From NCBI GenBank assembly GCA_015075635.1, contig JABTUA010000003.1:2232001-2296000 (forward strand): 64,000 nt of DNA. Direction: 5' to 3'. Below are positions 5,280 through 48,402 of this stretch, in pieces. The translations under genes were made by a program, and so were the position numbers. Within the stretch, counting starts at the first letter, position 1. Each line of letters begins with the position of its first letter. Below the pieces are notes generated by a model. That model saw only the letters and a program-made list of their open reading frames with translations. It was not told the DNA's origin and ran no database searches. Source of the DNA: Polyangiaceae bacterium (GTDB taxonomy: Bacteria > Myxococcota_A > Polyangia > Polyangiales > Polyangiaceae).

Positions 5280-6172
5280 GTGCCACCAACCCTCGCCGCG
5301 ACGCGGGTGCTGAAGCAGGTGAGACCCTGGCGCCGCCAGGCGTCCAGCACTGGCTCGGGATCGGCCTCGCAGAGCGCGATCACCGCGCCGCCCCCGCCCG
5401 CCCCGGTCAGCTTCGCGCCGAGCGCCCCGGCCTCTCGCGCGACGCGACAGGCGGTCTCGATCTCCTCCGTCGACACCATCAGGCCGGAGAGCAACATCTG
5501 GTTCAAGTCGAGCAAGCGACCGAGCCCCGTCACGTCACCGGCCTCGAGCGCCAGGCGAGCGTTCTTCACCAGCGACTCGATGCCCGCCAGCGACTTCCGG
5601 AACACCTCGGGGCGGCGCTCCCCGAGCCGCGCCACCGACTCGACCATGGCCTTGGTGCTCGCCGGCGGGCCCGCCACGGCGATGGCCAGCGTGAGCGTCG
5701 AGCCGAGCGCCAGCGGCTCGGTGCCGCCCTGCTTGGTGTACCAGATGCAGCCTCCGTGGGCCGCAGCTGCCGTGTCGATCCCCGACGGGTTGCCGTGGAA
5801 CACGCGCTCCCAGGCCGACGCGGCGGCGAGCACGCGCGCTTCCGGTCCGCCACCCCCGAGCTCGAGCACGGCGCGAGCGATGGCGACCCCGAGCGCCGCC
5901 GAGGAGCCCAGACCCGCGCCGACCGGCAGCTCAGAGGTCGCTCGCACCACGGCGGGCGCGGCCCCGAGCTCGCGCACGAGCGCGGCGAACGCGCGACCGA
6001 GGTCGCTGTCGTCGGCTGCACTGATGCGTGCTTCGCCGAGCCAGAGCAGAGAGACCTCCGCGTGCTGGGCGCTGGCCTCGGCGCCGCGTTCGATGCCCGC
6101 TGCGATGGCCGGCACCCCGTACACCACCGCGTGCTCGCCGAGCAGGATGACCTTGCCGCAGGCCCTGGCCAT
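5276..6172 (-). CDS. mvk: Mevalonate kinase
   Basis: 298 residues. It phosphorylates mevalonate to 5-phosphomevalonate. GHMP motifs appear in order: GKVILLGEHAVVYGVPAIA at the N-terminus, PVGAGLGSSAALGVAIARAV (ATP loop), FHGNPSGIDTAAAAHGG with the catalytic Asp, and KLTGAGGGGAVIAL near the C-terminus. The GNPSGID motif distinguishes mevalonate kinase from the other two GHMP genes of the operon. The ATG shares one base with the polyprenyl synthase TGA (TGATG). Confidence 0.95.
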   Translation of the reverse strand: MARACGKVILLGEHAVVYGVPAIAAGIERGAEASAQHAEVSLLWLGEARISAADDSDLGRAFAALVRELGAAPAVVRATSELPVGAGLGSSAALGVAIARAVLELGGGGPEARVLAAASAWERVFHGNPSGIDTAAAAHGGCIWYTKQGGTEPLALGSTLTLAIAVAGPPASTKAMVESVARLGERRPEVFRKSLAGIESLVKNARLALEAGDVTGLGRLLDLNQMLLSGLMVSTEEIETACRVAREAGALGAKLTGAGGGGAVIALCEADPEPVLDAWRRQGLTCFSTRVAARVGGT

Positions 6173-7206
6173 CAGTTTCGCCTGAGGGTGAGCACGCGAG
6201 CGGCACCCTCGAGCAGCAGGGCCCCGCTGGGCGGCAGGCGGCCAGCTTGGAGCGCCTCGAGCGCGGAGGCGGTGAGCTCTTCGATCCGCTTCTCGACGAG
6301 CTCTCGGGCACCGCTGCGTTCGATGACGTCCACGGCCTGCTCGAGCTCCGCCTTCGTGGCCCTCGCGTTGCCGATCACCGCCTTGAGCAGGCGATGGTCC
6401 CGGCCGCGAGCGCGCTTGAGCGCCGTGAGCAGCACGACGGTGTTCTTGCCGGCGCGCAGATCGCTGCCGAAAGGCTTGCCGGTCGCCTTCGGATCGCCGA
6501 AGACTCCCAGAAGGTCGTCGCGCAGCTGATAGGCGATGCCGACGGGGAGCGCGAAGCGATCCAGCGCCGTCAAGAGGCGCGCGCTGCCCCCCGCCATCAG
6601 CGCGCCCATGCGCAACGGTCCGCGGATGGTGTAGCTGCCGGTCTTGAGCTCGTAGACCTTCTCGACGTCGGCAGCGTTGGCCAACAGATCGAGCTGCTGC
6701 CCGGTAACCGCCGCCAATTGCATCTCCGCGAAGCAGCCGAGCACGCGGCCCATGCGCTCGGGGGCGACGTCCACGCGCGCCAGCGCGTCCGCGGCCAGCG
6801 CGACCGCGTAGTCTCCGGCCAAGATCGCCGAGGCCTCGCCCTTTTCCCGCGACCGCAGCCGGCGCGCCAGCGCCGCGTGGACGCTCGGTCCGCCACGCCG
6901 GGTCTCGTCGTGATCCATCCAGTCGTCGTGCACCAGGAAGTAGGCGTGCAGGAGCTCGAGCGCGACCCCGGCATCCAGCGCGGGCTCGAGGCTGGCGCCC
7001 GTGCTCGCGGCACGGTAGCCAGCCACCAAGAGGGCCGCCCGCGCGCGCTTGCCGCCGCGCAGGGTGAGATCGCGCAGCGCGGACACCATCTCGGTGACTC
7101 CGGGCCCGAAGGCCTTGGCGGCTGCCAGGTGCTCGTCGAGGTAACCCGCCAGGCGCGAGTCCACGTCTCGCTTCACCGCGGTCAGGAGGGAGGTGAAGGG
7201 GTTCAT
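6172..7206 (-). CDS. Polyprenyl (GGPP/FPP-type) diphosphate synthase
   Basis: 344 residues from the ATG at 7206; an alternative ATG at 7284 would add a basic KAKAKA-rich leader of 26 residues encoded by short CTTCGC repeats, so the start is uncertain. It condenses IPP with allylic diphosphates. Both aspartate-rich regions are present: HDDWMDHDETRRG (first, DDxxD) and YQLRDDLLGVFGD (second), with GGKRARAALLVAGY upstream for IPP binding. It is the first gene of the mevalonate operon and takes the product of the downstream genes after isomerisation by the divergent IPP isomerase. Chain length cannot be read with certainty; GGPP is likely for this subfamily. Confidence 0.9.
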   Translation of the reverse strand: MNPFTSLLTAVKRDVDSRLAGYLDEHLAAAKAFGPGVTEMVSALRDLTLRGGKRARAALLVAGYRAASTGASLEPALDAGVALELLHAYFLVHDDWMDHDETRRGGPSVHAALARRLRSREKGEASAILAGDYAVALAADALARVDVAPERMGRVLGCFAEMQLAAVTGQQLDLLANAADVEKVYELKTGSYTIRGPLRMGALMAGGSARLLTALDRFALPVGIAYQLRDDLLGVFGDPKATGKPFGSDLRAGKNTVVLLTALKRARGRDHRLLKAVIGNARATKAELEQAVDVIERSGARELVEKRIEELTASALEALQAGRLPPSGALLLEGAARVLTLRRN

Positions 7207-10362: not shown

Positions 10363-12120
10363 TCAGCCGAACGGCGGGACGACGAACTCGCCGCCGACCT
10401 CTGGCATGAACGCCCGGCGCATGCGGCCGTTCTCCAGCAAGAGGAACACCCGGTTCGGGTCGTCGAGGCTGCTCTCGAAGCGATAGCGCACGCGCTTCGG
10501 TGCCCAGCCCTCCACTTCGAGCACGGTGACGTCGAGCCCCGGGAGCGTCGCGCGATCGCCCGGACGGAAAGGCAGCGTGGGCCGCCGGAACATCTGCGAG
10601 GTCGGATCTTCGAACATGTGCCCGTGCTCGACGCTCAGCTCGAGCGTGTCGTCGGAGACCCTGAGGGCGCGCTGCGGCGAATTCGCGATGCCGAGCACGC
10701 GCCAGCGCTTGGGCAGCGGGGAGCCGTGGAAGTGGCGCACCCAGGGCGGGTAGATCAGCGCGGCGATCTCGCCGGCCGCGTTGATCAGCACCAGCTCCTG
10801 GCCGGCGACCTGCTGGTCGTCGATCTCGGCGGCCAGGTGCTTGGCGCGGATTGTGCCCACGATGTTCTTCCAGAAGTAGGCGTGGTCGTGGGTGAAGCGA
10901 GCCGAGAACCCCAGGTGCACGATGGCGACGGGGATCGTGGCGAGCCCGCGGAGCCAGGCGCCCGCGCGGCGCTCGGCGCTCACGAGCAGGAGCAGCCCGG
11001 AGTCCCAGATGGCCGCGCCGAGCAGCGCGCTGCCGCCGAAGCTGGTGATGAGCAGCAGGCGCACCGAAGGGATCGTGCCGACGAGCGGCAGCATGCCGAG
11101 CAGCATGCCGAGCCCCGCGGTGGCGAGGCGTCGGCGGTTCTGGGCGTCGGCGCGCCGCCACGTTCCGGCCACCAGGGCGAGCACCAAGGCGATGGGCACG
11201 AGCGCGCCCAGCGCTTCCGGCGAGCGCGAGAGCAGCTTCCCGTAGAACTGCTCGCCCGGAGTCAAGAGCACCTCGGTGGCGATCATGGCGGGGACGCGCA
11301 GCGCGACTTCGCTCAGGAACTGCCCTGGGCTGTCGAACGGGCCGATGTACACCACCGAGCCCTTGGCGCCGTAGCCGAGCGCGAGATGGACCGCCAGGTA
11401 GAGCGCCGCCGGGATCGCCGCCAAGGAGAGCCCGCGGAGCCGCTCGCGAAGCGGCTCTCCCCGGCTGCAGAGCTCGAAGGCGAGCACGTAGGCGAGGGCG
11501 CAGATGGCGTACTCGCCCCCGGCGAGCGCCAGCCCGAAGCCCAAGAGGGCGAGCGGCGCGCCGGGGCGCCAGCGCTCCTCGCGGAAGCGCAGGTACGCCC
11601 ACAGGCCGAGCGCGCCGAAGGTGGCGCTGATCAACGCGGTGCGGTTGCAGATCCAGGCGATGGGCGCGACCAACGCCGAGTCGAAGGCCAAGATCGCCGT
11701 GGCGATCAGCGCCGCGCCCTCGGGCAGCAGGCGCCGCGCCAGCAGGAAGTAGGCGAACACCAGGCCGACCAGCCAGAGCAGGGAGTGGACGTGCTGGCCC
11801 CGGGGACCGAGCGCGAGGGCGCGGTGGTCGAGCCAGAGCAGCGCGCTCGACAGGGGCCTGAGCAAGCTGAGCTTCAGATCCGGGTGGCTCCACCAGGGGG
11901 CGATGCCGCCGTCTTGGAGCGGGGCGAGCTCCCCCGGCCGCCTGAGGAACGAGTACAGATCGAGGGGCATCCGCGCCACCGGGTACTCGCCGTCGAGCAT
12001 GGCCCGGTTCAGGAAATCGTCCGCGGCCAGGCCCGCGTCGAGCGACGGCCAGTGGAGCCACAAGGCGACCGCGGCGAGCAGCGCCACGACGACGAGGCTC
12101 TTCCCGGTGGTGCTCGGCAT
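10363..12120 (-). CDS. Polytopic membrane protein, GT-C-like, paralogue of the 15973-17679 gene
   Basis: 585 residues from the ATG at 12120. About ten membrane segments fill residues 8-400; the C-terminal 170 residues are soluble. The first extracytoplasmic loop holds DDFLNRAM and the WSHPDLKLSLLRPLSSALLW motif, a layout reminiscent of GT-C glycosyltransferases with acidic residues after TM1. The same order of motifs (PDL.LS..RP.SS, CNRTALIS/LANRNALLAS, ERWRPG/EGWRPG, and a C-terminal F.PG/F.AG strand set) is found in the protein at 15973-17679. Substrate unknown; a lipid-linked sugar donor is only a guess from topology. Confidence 0.75.
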   Translation of the reverse strand: MPSTTGKSLVVVALLAAVALWLHWPSLDAGLAADDFLNRAMLDGEYPVARMPLDLYSFLRRPGELAPLQDGGIAPWWSHPDLKLSLLRPLSSALLWLDHRALALGPRGQHVHSLLWLVGLVFAYFLLARRLLPEGAALIATAILAFDSALVAPIAWICNRTALISATFGALGLWAYLRFREERWRPGAPLALLGFGLALAGGEYAICALAYVLAFELCSRGEPLRERLRGLSLAAIPAALYLAVHLALGYGAKGSVVYIGPFDSPGQFLSEVALRVPAMIATEVLLTPGEQFYGKLLSRSPEALGALVPIALVLALVAGTWRRADAQNRRRLATAGLGMLLGMLPLVGTIPSVRLLLITSFGGSALLGAAIWDSGLLLLVSAERRAGAWLRGLATIPVAIVHLGFSARFTHDHAYFWKNIVGTIRAKHLAAEIDDQQVAGQELVLINAAGEIAALIYPPWVRHFHGSPLPKRWRVLGIANSPQRALRVSDDTLELSVEHGHMFEDPTSQMFRRPTLPFRPGDRATLPGLDVTVLEVEGWAPKRVRYRFESSLDDPNRVFLLLENGRMRRAFMPEVGGEFVVPPFG

Positions 12121-40025: not shown

Positions 40026-41000
40026 CTACTTCACGCTGCAGGTCGAGACCCCGGCGCCGACCACGGTCTTGGCGATGCTGCCCACGACCGTGGTGCTGCC
40101 GTCCGCCGGGCTGTAGCGAGTGATCTTGGTGGGACCGCCGGACGGGGACGTGAACACGTAGAAATCGCCGCCCCAATGCGCGAAGGCGAAGGCGTGATCG
40201 TTCCCCGCGGCGACGGGCGTCACCGCGAGGACCTCGGCCGTGTGCTTGTCGATGTGGGCCACGTAGCCGCCGTTGCCGGCGGGGTCGAGGATGTAGCCCC
40301 AGAGCTTTCCGTCGTCGGAGCTCGTGAGCTCGATGCGGTTGCCCGGGTTCTGGGAGAATGGCCCGACCGGCGTGAGCACGAAGGAGCCGAGGTCGATGGA
40401 GGCGAGCCCGAGCGAGTCCGCCCCGGGCTTGCCGCTCTCGGCGACGTACAGCGTCTCGCCCTGACCGTCGTCGTTCAGCGCGAAGCCCATGCCGAAGAGC
40501 TTGAAGCCGTGCTGGTTGGGCTCGAAGCTGGTCTTGGCGCAGGCAGCGTTCTCCACGTTCACCATGAAGAGCTTGCCGGGCGGCGTCGCGCCGAGGCCGT
40601 TCGGTCGATACACCACGTAAGCGACGCCGAGTCGGCTCACGCCCATCGAGAACGGGTTGCCGTCGACGGGGCAGTCGAGCGCGCCCACCAGCTTGACCTC
40701 GCCGCTCGCCGGGTCGTAGCGATAGAAGTCCTTCTCGCTCGTGACCAGGTAGACGAACAGGTCCTCCGGGTCGCAGGGCGCCAGGCCGTCGACCAGGAGG
40801 TCGGGGAACGCGTCCGACGGCGAGTCGGGCGTTACGTCCTCCGAGACGTCCGCCGTTGCGTCCTGGTCGGCGCTGGCGTCTTCGGGTCCCGCGTCCGACG
40901 CCGCGTCCGGAGGCGCGGGGGCGAGGCCGCTGCGCGCGCCGCATGCCGCGGCGATGGAGAGCGGGAGCAGGATCGTGAGCCAGCGCGCGCCGAGTCGCAT
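40026..41000 (-). CDS. Lipoprotein with beta-propeller-like domain
   Basis: 324 residues. Signal peptide with lipobox AAAC (Cys about residue 20), an Asp/Ala/Ser-rich linker (residues 25-70), then a domain of repeating strands with DDGQGETLYVAES, SSDDGKLWGYILDPAGNGG and FAHWGGDFYVFTSPSGG, the rhythm of six- or seven-bladed propellers. Two cysteine pairs. Last gene of the minus-strand lipoprotein cluster. Ligand unknown. Confidence 0.7.
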   Translation of the reverse strand: MRLGARWLTILLPLSIAAACGARSGLAPAPPDAASDAGPEDASADQDATADVSEDVTPDSPSDAFPDLLVDGLAPCDPEDLFVYLVTSEKDFYRYDPASGEVKLVGALDCPVDGNPFSMGVSRLGVAYVVYRPNGLGATPPGKLFMVNVENAACAKTSFEPNQHGFKLFGMGFALNDDGQGETLYVAESGKPGADSLGLASIDLGSFVLTPVGPFSQNPGNRIELTSSDDGKLWGYILDPAGNGGYVAHIDKHTAEVLAVTPVAAGNDHAFAFAHWGGDFYVFTSPSGGPTKITRYSPADGSTTVVGSIAKTVVGAGVSTCSVK

Positions 41001-41035: not shown

Positions 41036-42217
41036 TCACAGAGAGCAGGCGAGCTCCATGGCGCCGGAGTCGCAGGCCTTGGCGAGCGTGAATTTCTTGC
41101 CGAGGTTCTTGCCGAAGGTGCACTCGCAGCTGGTGCCCGGAGCCGCGCAGCTCGCGGCCCAGTCGCCGCAGCCCTCCGTGCACTCGCCGCTCGGCATCCC
41201 GGAGCTGAAGCACTTCGTGTGGGGGCAGCTGTCCCGAATGGCCTCGCAGCTCGGCTCCAGGACGATGCCCGTCGTCGAGTCGCACTGAACGCCCTTGGCC
41301 AGGTAACACTCCAGCGCTTTCCAGTGGTACTCGCCGCAATCCGAGCCCCACACCCGCATGCTCTGCTCGCACTCTGCGAGGCTGAGTCCGCCGCAGCTGA
41401 GCGCCGCCTTGCAGAAGTCGCGCACGACGTCGGAGCCCGTCGCGGAGGCGTTGCACGCGGCCGGGCAGGGCGTCGCGAGGCACGCCTTGTAGGCGTCCGC
41501 CGCCTTGCCAGCGTCGGGGAACGCGCCGCCGCAGATCGTGGCGCAGTTGCTGGAGGTGCCGGAGCAAAGCTCGATGCAGTCCGCCCAGCCGGTGAAGTCC
41601 TTGGCCAACGTGATGGCCTTGGCCGCGGCGCAGCAGTTGTTCTTGCCGCAGTAGCTGCACAGGCTCTCACCGGGCGTGTGCTCGCAGACCGTGCAGGCGG
41701 CCTCCGCCTGCCGCTCCGCGTCGCAGCCGCCGAGCTGTGGGGTTTCGAACGGACAAGTGAAACAGCCGGCGTTCGCCGCGCAGTCGACCACCGCCTGCGA
41801 CTCCTTGGCGCAGGCCGGGTACTTGGCGAGCTGTTTCTCGCAGCGGAGCTTGCAGACCGCGGGGTCCAAGACCTCGCAGATCCCCTGCGGCGCGGCTGCG
41901 AGGCTCTTGGCGCACGACTTCTCGCAGGGTGTCCCGCCTCCGCCCACGGGCCCGCACACGCCGCCGTCCCCGGCTACCGTGCCTCCTGCTCCGGCGGCCC
42001 CGCCGCCGGCGAACCCACCGCTGCCGCCGCTCCCCGCGGAGCCGTCGCCGGCTGCGCCCCCGGAACCTCCTGCGGCAGCATCGGAGCCCCCGGTGCCGCC
42101 GGTGCCGGCGCTCCCGCCCGCCGCGGGCCCGCCGCTGGGGTCATCCGAGCCGCATGCTGCCGTGACGAGCACGATCCCGAGTCCCAGTGCGCCCAATCCC
42201 GCCAGCGCGCTCCGCAT
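41036..42217 (-). CDS. Large Cys-rich lipoprotein
   Basis: 393 residues. Signal peptide with lipobox TAACG (Cys about residue 21), a Gly/Ser-rich linker (25-85), then a long domain with about 40 cysteines arranged as C...C...C...C helical-hairpin-like repeats (CEKSCAKSLAAAPQGICEVL, CIELCSGTSSNCATICGGAF). Possibly several related units. No known family. Disulfide-bonded surface protein. Confidence 0.7.
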   Translation of the reverse strand: MRSALAGLGALGLGIVLVTAACGSDDPSGGPAAGGSAGTGGTGGSDAAAGGSGGAAGDGSAGSGGSGGFAGGGAAGAGGTVAGDGGVCGPVGGGGTPCEKSCAKSLAAAPQGICEVLDPAVCKLRCEKQLAKYPACAKESQAVVDCAANAGCFTCPFETPQLGGCDAERQAEAACTVCEHTPGESLCSYCGKNNCCAAAKAITLAKDFTGWADCIELCSGTSSNCATICGGAFPDAGKAADAYKACLATPCPAACNASATGSDVVRDFCKAALSCGGLSLAECEQSMRVWGSDCGEYHWKALECYLAKGVQCDSTTGIVLEPSCEAIRDSCPHTKCFSSGMPSGECTEGCGDWAASCAAPGTSCECTFGKNLGKKFTLAKACDSGAMELACSL

Positions 42218-42268: not shown

Positions 42269-42892
42269 CTACTTCACGCACAGCGTGGCACCCGGGTGCG
42301 GGCTCTCCTTGCAGAAGCCAGCCGGACGGCTCGGGAAGAAGCAGCAGAACGCGGCGGTCGAACCGCACTCGCTGCCCGTCCAGCAGGTGCGCTGCTCGCC
42401 GCTCAGGCACTCGGCGCGACACTTGGAGGGCGTGGATCCGAAGGTGGTGTCCGCGCAGCAGAGCTGTCCCTCGCCGCAGTCCTCGCCCGCGTCGCACATG
42501 CGCTCCAGGGCGTTCAATCCGCAGGCGATCTCCAGCGGGATGCACTGGAACGCGGGCGGGTTGCCGCTGCCTTCGCCGGTGATGCAGCAGTGCTGGAGCG
42601 GCGCCTGACAGGCGGCGCCCGGACAAGTGATGCTCGGACCATTGGACCCCGGACCGACCGGGAGAGCTCCGCCATCATCGCTCGCCCCGGCAGCGCCGCT
42701 CTGGCCCCCGGCTCCGCTGACGCCGCCGGCCTGGCCGCCGCTGCCTCCGCTGATCGACGCTTCCTCCCACCCCGCAGGTGCTCCGCCCGACGCCGCCGCG
42801 CCGGCAGCGCCGCCCGGCTCGCCGAGCGCTCCGCCAGACGCCGAGCATGCCGCCAGCGTGAGGGCGACCACGGGAAGCGCGCCGCGCATCAC
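42269..42892 (-). CDS. Cys-rich lipoprotein
   Basis: 207 residues. Signal peptide with lipobox LAAC (Cys about 16), Gly/Ala/Ser linker (20-85), then an about 110-residue domain with paired cysteines (LQHCCITGEGSGNPPAFQC, GQLCCADTTFG, AFCCFFPSRP). The CC pairs recall small disulfide domains of myxobacterial surface proteins. ATG overlaps the stop of the IgGFc-like gene (ATGA), so the two are probably made together. Confidence 0.7.
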   Translation of the reverse strand: MMRGALPVVALTLAACSASGGALGEPGGAAGAAASGGAPAGWEEASISGGSGGQAGGVSGAGGQSGAAGASDDGGALPVGPGSNGPSITCPGAACQAPLQHCCITGEGSGNPPAFQCIPLEIACGLNALERMCDAGEDCGEGQLCCADTTFGSTPSKCRAECLSGEQRTCWTGSECGSTAAFCCFFPSRPAGFCKESPHPGATLCVK

Positions 42893-44606: not shown

Positions 44607-44646
44607 CTGAAAGCTCGCTGAAAGATCGGTTTCAGCGTTCTTTCAG
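44607..44646. promoter_or_regulatory. Symmetric 40-bp inverted repeat in the divergent promoter
   Basis: Two CTGAAAG boxes (44607-44613, 44618-44624) face two TTTCAG boxes (44630-44635, 44641-44646), each pair 11 bp apart, one DNA turn. The centre of symmetry is 44626.5; the two half-sites match at 17 of 20 positions. It lies 42 bp from the 44565 start and 35 bp from the 44681 start. It is placed for a dimeric or tetrameric regulator of both transcripts. Regulator unknown. Confidence 0.55.
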
Positions 44647-44680: not shown

Positions 44681-45679
44681 ATGGAAACGCTGCGTATGGG
44701 GCTCGTCGTGCCACTGCTGATCTTGGGTTGCTCTGCCGCGGGCTCGGGGCCCGCGGGCGGCGCTGAGAGCGGAACAGCCGAGAGCACGGGCGGGGCCAGC
44801 GGGAGCACCTCCCCGGGCGGTAGCGCCTCGGTGGGCCAAGCTGGCCAGGCCGGGGAGGGAGGCGACACGGGCGCGGGAACGCCCCCGCTCGACGCAGGCC
44901 CGAAGACGCCGAGCCCTCCGGCGCCCGGCGAGTGGATCAGCGTCAACCAGGGCAGCTACCTCGCCGGCGCGGCGCCGGACGACACCTGCAACACCTCCGT
45001 GAACCAGGTAGAGCACCCGGTGACCCTGACCCACGACTTCGAGCTGAGCGCGACGGAGGTGACCTTCGCACAGTACGAGCTCGCGATGGGCGCGCCGCAC
45101 CCGAGCGCGGGCAGCTGCCCGAGCTGTCCGGCCAACCTGCTGAGCTGGCACGCGGCCGCGGCGCTCTGCAACGCGTACTCGACGAGCGCAGGGCTCGTGC
45201 CCTGCTACGCGTGCGACGGCGCGGTGTGCGAGGAGGCGATCGCCCCCCACGCCTGTCACGGCTATCGTCTGCCCACCGAGGCCGAGTGGGAGTTCGCCCA
45301 CCGCGCGGGCACCAGCGCGCCGACCTACGCCGGCGCCATCACGGTCTGCGGTGGGCTCGATCCCGGCCTGGATGGGATCGCGTGGTTCCTCTACAACTCG
45401 TCGGGCGGCGCCCATCCCGTCGGGACCAAGCAGGCAAACGCCTGGGGGTTCTTCGACATGAGCGGGAACGTCTGGGAGTGGACCCACGACGGCTACGTCT
45501 CGGACCGTTCGACGCTGCCCCAGCTGGACCCTGTCGGCCCTGCGAGCGATCTGCGCGTGATGCGCGGCGGCTCCTACAACTGCGTCCCGAGCGAGATCCG
45601 CGCGGCGCATCGCTCGGGGCTCCCGGCCACGATAGCGGGCCTGAACGTCGGGGTTCGCTGCGCGCGCACGCTGGACTGA
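44681..45679 (+). CDS. FGE-sulfatase-fold lipoprotein
   Basis: 332 residues from the ATG at 44681 (an ATG five codons on is possible). Signal peptide with lipobox ILGC (Cys about residue 16), Gly/Ser linker, then a formylglycine-generating-enzyme fold from about residue 85: FELSATEVTFAQYELAMG, YRLPTEAEWEFAHRAGTS, MSGNVWEWTHDGY, RVMRGGSYNCVPSEIRAAHR. The active-site segment keeps only one Cys (YNCVPSEIR) where aerobic FGE has two, so it is more likely a structural/C-type-lectin-like member than a true FGE. Divergent from the IgGFc-like operon. Confidence 0.8.
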   Translation: METLRMGLVVPLLILGCSAAGSGPAGGAESGTAESTGGASGSTSPGGSASVGQAGQAGEGGDTGAGTPPLDAGPKTPSPPAPGEWISVNQGSYLAGAAPDDTCNTSVNQVEHPVTLTHDFELSATEVTFAQYELAMGAPHPSAGSCPSCPANLLSWHAAAALCNAYSTSAGLVPCYACDGAVCEEAIAPHACHGYRLPTEAEWEFAHRAGTSAPTYAGAITVCGGLDPGLDGIAWFLYNSSGGAHPVGTKQANAWGFFDMSGNVWEWTHDGYVSDRSTLPQLDPVGPASDLRVMRGGSYNCVPSEIRAAHRSGLPATIAGLNVGVRCARTLD

Positions 45680-45702: not shown

Positions 45703-48402
45703 TTGGCTCGCGCCCCCACGAACTTGCGCCCCGATCCTTCGTCCTTCGTCGGTCGGGACGCCGATCTCGCTCGCGTGAAAGCGGCGCTCGAGAGCGCGAG
45801 CCTGGTGTCGCTGACGGGGCCGCCCGGGGTCGGAAAGTCGCGGCTGGCCAAGGAGCTCGCGCTGACCGCCGGCCACCCCGCGTGGTTCTGCGACCTGTCC
45901 GTCGCCGAGAGCGCCGAGGGCATCGCAGCCCGCGTCGCCAGCGTGCTCGATCTGCCGCTCGCCGAAGGCCGTTCGGCGAAGGACGCGGTCGCGCAGATCG
46001 CCCGGGCGCTCTCGCGCCGAGGCGCAGTGACGCTGCTCCTCGACGACTTCGACCACCTGGTCCCGCACGCCGAGGGCACGCTGGGGATCTGGCGCAGCGC
46101 GGCGCCGCGCGCCCGCTTCGTCGTGACCACGCGCCAGCGGCTCGGTCTGGCCGGGGAGAGCGTGATCGAGCTTCACCCCTTGGGCGCCGAGGCCGTCGAG
46201 CTCTTCGTCGAGCGGGCACGCGCGGTGCGCCGGAGCTTCGAGCCCACGAAGGCCGAGCTCGCCCTCATCGGTCGGCTCGTGGAGCGGCTCGACGGGCTGC
46301 CGCTGGCGATCGAGCTCGCGGCGGCCCGCGCCGGCGTGCTCGGCGTGCGCCAGCTGCTCGAGCGCCTGGAGGGCTCGCTCTCGGCGCTGGATCGGGGCGA
46401 GCGGAGCGACCGCTCGACGCTGCGCGGCGCCCTCCGGTGGTCGTGGGAGCTGTCGAGCGAGCGCGAGCGACAGGTGCTCGAGGCGGTCTCCGCCTGCGTG
46501 GGCGGCTTCGACGCGCGCGCCGCCGAGGCCCTCACCGAGCTCGAGGGGGCATCGGTGCTCGACGCGCTCGAGGCGCTCGTCGGCCGCTCGCTGCTCTTGG
46601 CGGAGAGCGACGGCGAAGAGATCCGCTTCCGCATGCTGGCGACCGTGCGCGAGTTCGCGCACGACGAGCTGGCGCAAGGCGGGCTCATCGAAACCGTGCA
46701 CCGACGCCACGCCGCCCACTACCTGGAGCTCGGCACTCGGGCTGCGGAGGGGATCGACGGCCCGCGCGCCGCGGAGCTCTTCGCTCGGCTGAAGGTCGAG
46801 CGGGACAACCTGCTGGCGGTCGCGCGGCGCGAGCTGGCGCGCTCACCGCTCTCCGCCGCCGGCATCGAGCGCGCGCTGGGCGCCGTGTTGGCGCTCGAGC
46901 GGCTCTGCATCATTCGTGATCCGGTCGAGGGCTACCTGACGCTCCTGGAGCGGGCGCTGGAGCACGCGCTGGGGCTCGGGGTCGATCGCCGCCTGGTGAC
47001 CGAGGCGCTGCGCATGCGAGGCGCGCTCTACTTGTTCTTGGGCCGACCGAGCGACACGGAGCGGGACAACCGCGCCGCGCTGGCGCTCGCGCGCGAGCTG
47101 GGCGACGTCGCGCTGGAGGCCCGGCTGCTCGCGGCGCTCGCGCTGACGGGGCTCAGGCGAGTCCCGGTGGCGCCCGAGGAGATGCCGAAGCGCCGCGTGG
47201 ACGCGCGTCACGCCATGGAGGAGGCGCTCGAGCTCTACCCGCACCGAGACGCGCGGCGCGGCATCATCCTGAACAACCTCGGCGTGATCCTCGAGGGGCT
47301 GGGCGATTGGGAAGAGGCCGAGCGGCGCTACGATGAGGCCGTCGCCTGCTACCGCAACGTCCCGTGCCAGAGCGCGGGCGTCGCGCTCGCCAGCCGTGGC
47401 GCGCTCCACTACGCGAGCGGGCGCCTGCCCGAAGCGCAGGCCGACCTGCGACGCGCGCTCGAGATGCTGGGCGCGTTCGGCGACCGGCGTTCGGGCGCGT
47501 ACGTCCACGCCGAGCTCGGCGCGCTCTACGCCGAGCAAGGGCTCGCCCGCGAGGCACGCGTCGAGCTCGAGGCGTGCCTGGTCTGCCACGCGGAGGCTGG
47601 CCTGTCGTGGTACGAGGGCCCCGCGCTGGCCACGCTCGGCGACCTGGAGCTGGGCTTGGGCGACGCATCGAGCGCGAGAGCGAGCTACGCCGCGGCGCTC
47701 GAGGCCGCCCGCTCGGGTGGTGACGGCGCGCTTCAGGTGCGCGCGCTCGCGGGTCTCGCCTGCGCGCTCGCGGCGGAGAGCTCCCGCGGCGACGCACGCG
47801 ACACGCTCGGGGCGGCCGCGTCGCTCGCCGAAGAGCCGGTGCCGCGTGCGTGCGTCGACGCGGCCCGCGGCTACCTGGCGCTCGTCGAAGCCCGCGCGCT
47901 GCCGACCCCGACCGAGGCGCGAGACGCGATGGATGACACGCGCGCGGTTCTCCGGGACCTCGCCGCCGTGGCGCGAACGGAGCGCTCGGCCGTCGTGCGC
48001 GCGCGCTCTCTGTGGCTCGAACGGTCCTTGGAAGCGGAGGCCGAACGCCGCGCCGGCGCGGTCGCCGCCGCCGCGCTACGGGTGACGGCCGACGGCAAGT
48101 GGTTTCGTCTGCCCGGTGGCGAAGGAGTGTCCCTCCACCGCCGTCCGGCGCTCGCGCTCGTGCTCGCGCACCTCGTCCGCTCACGCATCGACGCGCCCGG
48201 CGAGGGTGCGGCGCTCGAGGCGTTGTTCGCCGCGGGCTGGCCCGGAGAGCGCATCGACCCGCACTCGGCGGCGATGCGCGTCCACCAGGCCGTCGCGACT
48301 CTGCGCAAGCTGGGCCTCCGAGCTGCGCTCCTGCGCAAGCAGGACGGTTACCTGCTCGACCCGAGCCTGCCGGTCACGCGCGTCGCGAAGCCGGATGCGT
48401 GA
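45703..48402 (+). CDS. AfsR/STAND-type regulator with C-terminal winged helix
   Basis: 899 residues from a TTG at 45703. NTPase domain (residues about 14-300): Walker A GPPGVGKS (39-46), Walker B TLLLDDFDHL, sensor VVTTRQRLGL, and GLPLAIELAA. Residues about 380-790 are TPR-like helical repeats (GDWEEAERRYDEAVACYR and many others). The C-terminal 90 residues look like an OmpR-type winged helix (GGEGVSLHRRPALALVLAHL, WPGERIDPHSAAMRVHQAVA, LLRKQDGYLLD). In AfsR the winged helix is N-terminal; here the order is reversed. Likely an ATP-switched activator with unknown signal. Confidence 0.85.
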   Translation: MARAPTNLRPDPSSFVGRDADLARVKAALESASLVSLTGPPGVGKSRLAKELALTAGHPAWFCDLSVAESAEGIAARVASVLDLPLAEGRSAKDAVAQIARALSRRGAVTLLLDDFDHLVPHAEGTLGIWRSAAPRARFVVTTRQRLGLAGESVIELHPLGAEAVELFVERARAVRRSFEPTKAELALIGRLVERLDGLPLAIELAAARAGVLGVRQLLERLEGSLSALDRGERSDRSTLRGALRWSWELSSERERQVLEAVSACVGGFDARAAEALTELEGASVLDALEALVGRSLLLAESDGEEIRFRMLATVREFAHDELAQGGLIETVHRRHAAHYLELGTRAAEGIDGPRAAELFARLKVERDNLLAVARRELARSPLSAAGIERALGAVLALERLCIIRDPVEGYLTLLERALEHALGLGVDRRLVTEALRMRGALYLFLGRPSDTERDNRAALALARELGDVALEARLLAALALTGLRRVPVAPEEMPKRRVDARHAMEEALELYPHRDARRGIILNNLGVILEGLGDWEEAERRYDEAVACYRNVPCQSAGVALASRGALHYASGRLPEAQADLRRALEMLGAFGDRRSGAYVHAELGALYAEQGLAREARVELEACLVCHAEAGLSWYEGPALATLGDLELGLGDASSARASYAAALEAARSGGDGALQVRALAGLACALAAESSRGDARDTLGAAASLAEEPVPRACVDAARGYLALVEARALPTPTEARDAMDDTRAVLRDLAAVARTERSAVVRARSLWLERSLEAEAERRAGAVAAAALRVTADGKWFRLPGGEGVSLHRRPALALVLAHLVRSRIDAPGEGAALEALFAAGWPGERIDPHSAAMRVHQAVATLRKLGLRAALLRKQDGYLLDPSLPVTRVAKPDA

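Follow-up and report, generated by a model that had tools for sequence, protein, structure and literature searches.

Two tandem pairs of a short box lie back to back in a divergent promoter of a Polyangiaceae bacterium, and each pair is quite probably the operator of a STAND-type regulator encoded by the second gene to the right, at 45703-48402. Two winged helices would occupy each pair, one operator would serve each of the divergent promoters, and the regulator would most likely act as an activator. All positions refer to the window, the whole stretch of 64,000 nucleotides that was analyzed. Judged from the sequence, the functional unit appears to be one tandem pair per promoter, and the window carries two of these putative operators, each a TTTCAG-N5-TTTCAG oriented towards its own gene.

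Architecture of the box array

The boxes are CTGAAAG at 44607-44613 and 44618-44624 and TTTCAG at 44630-44635 and 44641-44646, centered on 44626.5, and re-reading the window bore out these sequences and coordinates as first given by the initial annotation. The steps between successive boxes are 11, 12 and 11 bp, in agreement with the one-helical-turn spacing that had been claimed, and the placement in a divergent promoter between a surface-lipoprotein operon and an FGE-fold gene was also correct, both flanking first genes encoding lipoproteins. The 20-bp half-sites had been credited with 17 matching bases; a recount gives 15 of 20.

Pair 1 (44607-44624, minus strand) reads CTTTCAG-N4-CTTTCAG on its own strand and is the putative operator facing an IgGFc-type lipoprotein gene. 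Its proximal box lies 47 bp from the ATG of that gene, compared with 45 bp in a second species of the genus (genome G002), where the hexamers are conserved at a similar position. Pair 2 (44629-44646, plus strand) reads GTTTCAG-N4-CTTTCAG and faces the FGE-fold lipoprotein gene, with 34 bp from proximal box to ATG in the window and in G002 alike. The gap between the pairs (44625-44628) is not conserved, measuring 4 bp in the window and about 22 bp in G002. The exact four-box symmetry stressed in the initial annotation is therefore present in the window but is not a conserved feature, and because the gap varies and single pairs occur alone we regard it as incidental rather than functional.

Within the 9.47-Mb source genome, CTGAAAG-N(3-5)-CTGAAAG has one match, and CTGAAA-N5-CTGAAA has two, both inside the array at 44607-44646. 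The pair was found 45 times in 108 genomes of the family, against about 17 for a reversed control, which puts the chance rate at roughly 0.2-0.4 per genome. A single pair elsewhere in the family genomes is usually a chance occurrence, but two within 40 bp are not, and the four-box array is real. The full array was also tried as a search unit in relatives and was discarded, as it found nothing outside the source genome owing to the variable gap between pairs; allowing up to three mismatches, the four-box pattern had no match elsewhere in 59 related genomes. A promoter scan found no sigma-70-like promoter near the array. At several sites only, a -10-like element resembling TAxxCT follows the proximal box at a distance of about 21 bp, which is no more than suggestive.

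Genes flanking the array

The leftward operon begins with the lipoprotein gene carrying the IgGFc_binding domain (PF17517; 42889-44559, minus strand), whose start was set at an ATG conserved in G002. It is followed on the same strand by a gene for a cysteine-rich lipoprotein (42269-42892) that overlaps its end, and then by two lipoprotein-like genes at 41036-42217 and 40026-41000, which are probably co-transcribed with the others across gaps of 51 and 35 bp. Lipoproteins with an IgGFc_binding domain are widespread, with a strong match in 70 of the 108 family genomes and six in the source genome.

To the right, on the plus strand, the gene at 44681-45679 encodes a protein of the FGE-sulfatase fold (PF03781, Pfam) with an N-terminal lipobox, LILGC, seen in its sequence. 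The proposed regulator gene (45703-48402, plus strand) starts only 23 bp after it, so the two genes probably form one transcript.

The candidate regulator

A Pfam scan of the 45703-48402 product identified an AAA/NB-ARC ATPase (AAA_22) and TPRs, a P-loop of sequence GPPGVGKS is present, and the family profile matches AfsR (8k60/8jke) across residues 11-702, which form the ATPase-TPR part (E 1e-35). The last 110 residues are named by neither Pfam nor NCBIfam. An AlphaFold model places a winged helix at about residues 790-895 with a pLDDT of 92; this segment, missed by Pfam, is encoded at 48070-48387 (plus strand) and has the recognition helix SAAMRVHQAVATLRKLGL. Compared with known structures, the predicted domain gave Z scores of 10.5 for CovR, 9.7 for RstA on DNA, 8.9 for PhoB on pho-box DNA and 8.2 for AfsR on the afsS promoter, and Z 8-10 for OmpR, CovR, RstA and PhoB taken together; Foldseek returned moderate E-values only. 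The C-terminal domain is thus predicted to fold as an OmpR/PhoB-type winged helix. The Pfam scan showed ATPase and TPRs only, with no match to a GerE domain, a BTA domain or a receiver domain.

This protein is the likely reader of the boxes. The initial annotation had suggested that one regulator could control both sides of the promoter and had named none; this idea is probably right, and the 45703-48402 product is our candidate.

Conservation within the genus

At the orthologous locus of G002 the regulator is 66% identical and the IgGFc-type lipoprotein 76% identical, with the FGE-fold gene in between. All four hexamers are unchanged while the rest of the intergenic region has diverged, and the right pair is the same at 18 of 18 bases. 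The homolog of the second lipoprotein gene of the window (66% over 127 residues) has moved in G002 to the far side of the regulator, where it has its own single pair, TTTCAGTGATCTTTCAT, 33 bp from its ATG. In a further genome of the genus (G001), the regulator is reduced to a remnant of its last 104 residues, 77% identical (locus L298, G001:C239:16000-29000, 6104-6415), and beside this remnant there is no ATPase-TPR part, FGE-fold gene, orthologous IgGFc gene or TTTCAG pair.

The initial annotation had called for a search for the CTGAAAG pair and would have given up the proposal if the pair neither recurred nor was conserved. The source genome has no further copy of the pair, but G002 has kept it and it occurs beside a regulator homolog in another genus, so that the condition for giving up the proposal did not arise.

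Regulator, box and lipoprotein sets in other genomes

In that other genus (G127), a regulator homolog of 34% identity adjoins two lipoprotein genes, both of which have a TTTCAG pair in front of them, at 35 and 25 bp from the start. G002, G127, Minicystis and a paralog locus of the source genome all have single pairs that lack an inverted partner and keep a similar distance to the start codon. The box changes from one homolog to another: it is TTTCGGGGATCTTTCGGG at L121, TTTCAACGAATTTTCAAC at L184 (Minicystis rosea) and ATGTAAGCGGCATGTAAG at L142, L143 and L144, with one change at L138. The paralog in the source genome (L080) has three TTTGAC boxes, with a TTTGACC pair conserved in G001 (L280), and TTATCGA boxes occur at L126, L127 and L129. 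Three boxes at 10 bp were found at L145 (TTAATC) and L306 (TTTCAG), and four TTAAGC in exact 11-bp register stand before the lipoprotein gene of L290 (G319:C49:37000-50000), some 98 nt beyond the stop codon of the regulator (6249). Repeats at the homolog loci are mostly upstream of a predicted lipoprotein adjoining the regulator, and in the source genome all three strong members of the regulator family have 10-11-bp repeats beside a lipoprotein.

Repeats were scanned with boxes limited to those with at least three A/T; unfiltered hexamers were swamped by GC-rich codon repeats. In 46 regulator loci, the search for spaced hexamers that recur within one locus returned 22 entries at p<1e-4 for a period of 11 bp, compared with 3 at period 10 and none at periods 13, 14, 16 and 17, a count that includes overlapping hexamers and so shows the period and not the number of sites. 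Exact 7-mer repeats at 11 bp occurred in 8 of 29 clusters formed at 55% identity, versus 0-4 for the other periods from 7 to 25. An 11-bp repeat was present in 7 of 58 lipoprotein promoters near regulators and in 0 of 32 control lipoprotein promoters, the control set having replaced an early, biased version that included loci picked for the 11-bp pattern. A second set of 36 loci, most of them belonging to other families and classes of the phylum, included 7 with a 10- or 11-bp repeat, where random windows gave a mean of 1.1 and a maximum of 4 in 200 draws. Similar sets of regulator, boxes and lipoprotein recur across the myxobacterial phylum. With the consensus boxes tested, a clear repeat is missing from more than half of the 62 regulator clusters, and none was seen at L123, which has the closest DNA-binding domain outside the genus (57%); the rule that joins regulator and box is common, not universal.

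Recognition helix and box type

When the 62 clusters were aligned, TTTCAG pairs (at most one mismatch) were found in 5 and TTAAGC, TTAAGG or GTAAGC pairs in 9. An Asn precedes the conserved Arg of the recognition helix in all 9 clusters of the TTAAG/GTAAG type and in none of the 5 of the TTTCAG type (p 0.0005), and each box kind tested against helix class over all 62 clusters gave p 0.008, values to be read with the boxes having been picked after some of the loci had been viewed and with the 55%-identity clusters being related and not fully independent. In the 45703-48402 product the residue at this helix position is Met (SAAMRV). Scrambled TTTCAG matched 0.17 clusters on average, against 5 for the real box, and scrambled TTAAGC 0.43, against 6; other spacings gave 0 or 1 clusters. 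The sequence of the box thus seems to change along with the regulator's recognition helix, and this agreement between a box and the protein encoded beside it provides the best available evidence that the protein reads the box.

These observations may extend to a large family in the Myxococcota, made up of one-component STAND regulators that end in an OmpR-type winged helix, many of them with their own surface lipoprotein and tandem operator, in which one helix position (Asn or not) predicts a TTAAG/GTAAG or a TTTCAG box. We give an even chance to this picture of diversified, insulated modules with a readable DNA code. If the code is true, regulator, operator and lipoprotein would form insulated modules, and a set of mutually insulated regulator-operator pairs could result. 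Many of the AAA-TPR proteins and surface lipoproteins in myxobacterial genomes have no regulation assigned to them, and the operator rule links a family of these. No description of the regulator family was found in the open literature searched, the coverage of which was incomplete.

Proposed mechanism and alternatives

Winged helices of the OmpR/PhoB type recognize direct repeats spaced by about one turn of the DNA helix, and STAND ATPases multimerize on a signal, driven by ATP. In the mechanism we propose, two winged-helix domains would sit side by side on each CTTTCAG-N4-CTTTCAG pair, perhaps cooperatively and on the same face of the DNA, in the manner of SARP/AfsR and PhoB-type domains. The AAA/NB-ARC-TPR part would sense a signal and assemble in an ATP-dependent manner, and the assembled regulator would place RNA polymerase on promoters without good -35 and -10 elements. 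Its targets would be the lipoprotein operon to the left (44559 to 40026) and, to the right, the FGE-fold lipoprotein gene together with the regulator gene itself, making autoregulation probable.

The strongest competing explanation, to which we attach roughly one chance in five, keeps the same regulator and sites and makes the protein a repressor, the bound pairs overlapping the promoters and blocking RNA polymerase until a signal arrives. With boxes 34 and 47 bp from the start codons, such an overlap with the core promoters could occur. However, AfsR and the SARP-LAL proteins, which come nearest in ATPase-TPR architecture and in type of operator, are activators (PMC10936776, PMC5930380), and the sequence shows no promoter strong enough to call for repression. 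Our preference for activation follows the example of AfsR and PimR and the lack of visible good promoter elements.

It is improbable that the neighboring gene is not the reader and that the pairs are instead operators of another OmpR/PhoB-type protein, such as a two-component response regulator encoded elsewhere. OmpR/PhoB-type winged helices in general use a heptamer with a 4-bp spacer, but several targets would normally be expected of a distant response regulator and the pair occurs at one locus only in the genome; moreover, the repeats accompany homologs of the regulator and vary with their recognition helix. Far less probable is an RNA hairpin in which the CTGAAAG and CTTTCAG arms fold as an attenuator or terminator. 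The segment does fold better than shuffled versions (z -3.3) and scores as terminator-like, but inverted pairs force such a fold, the single pairs of G002, G127, Minicystis and the paralog locus keep similar start distances with no inverted partner, and a hairpin does not need 11-bp direct spacing. Chance repeats without function can be dismissed almost entirely, for single exact pairs do arise at the background rate given above, but here two pairs fall within 40 bp, independent pairs occur at related loci, and conservation in another species, G002, contradicts this.

Comparison with known systems

The pho box consists of direct repeats at one helical turn, and the PhoB/OmpR response regulators share with the system proposed here both these repeats and the winged-helix fold; the 45703-48402 product differs in having no receiver domain. 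MalT has the order NB-ARC-type ATPase, TPR-like sensor and C-terminal DNA-binding domain, and its C-terminal domain is a LuxR-type helix-turn-helix. The order of domains in MalT and other LAL-type STAND proteins is that of the 45703-48402 product, but their DNA-binding domain is LuxR-type (GerE), whereas the one here is predicted to be an OmpR/PhoB-type winged helix.

The closest parallel is with AfsR, PimR and related SARP-LAL regulators of Streptomyces, which also combine an AAA/NB-ARC ATPase and TPRs with an OmpR-type DNA-binding domain. Their operators consist of two or three direct heptamers in the promoter of the target gene, separated by 4-nt spacers (11 bp) or, at a secondary site, by 3-nt spacers (10 bp) (PMC5930380, PMC10936776). 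The window and the related loci agree with this arrangement of direct repeats at 11 bp, and also 10 bp, in the target-gene promoter. The DNA-binding domain of these proteins is N-terminal, while in the 45703-48402 product it is C-terminal, the N-terminus being the ATPase, and no BTA domain was found. The targets also differ, being antibiotic genes in the Actinomycetota proteins and, by prediction, surface lipoproteins in this one from the Myxococcota. In SARP/AfsR systems the 3' repeat lies about 8 bp from the -10 element; the window has no convincing -10, and the -10-like element at some sites is about 21 bp away. The regulator would thus resemble AfsR but carry its DNA-binding domain at the opposite end, a different domain order serving surface lipoproteins.

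Additional box arrangements

Two further exact TTTCAG pairs stand before lipoprotein-like genes in G087 and G077, with no family regulator within the region covered, and these may be chance occurrences. The one at L308 (G087:C23, about 130216) is a TTTCAG-N5-TTTCAG located 33 bp ahead of the start of a lipoprotein; the 16 kb covered there contain no regulator of the family, and the pair may reflect either chance or a distant reader. At L117, a degenerate inverted second pair, CTTCAG-N5-TGTCAG (about 10466-10482), faces no gene start and is possibly an upstream auxiliary site.

Boxes of the TTAA type at 10 bp, identified by eye, occur before the regulator gene (L130 and L136) and after it (L128 and L130), which suggests autoregulation in that subgroup. 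At L122, L124, L126, L127 and L129 the regulator gene is preceded by two or three CGATAA boxes in 11-bp steps, and at the last three loci these boxes separate it from a divergently transcribed gene for a lipoprotein of about 900 aa. The loci L138, L142 and L144 each have two ATGTAAG pairs, one before the lipoprotein adjoining the regulator and the other about 93-119 bp ahead of a second lipoprotein, which is transcribed towards the regulator and its neighbor. The putative operator of L290 is the longest of its kind that we have seen.
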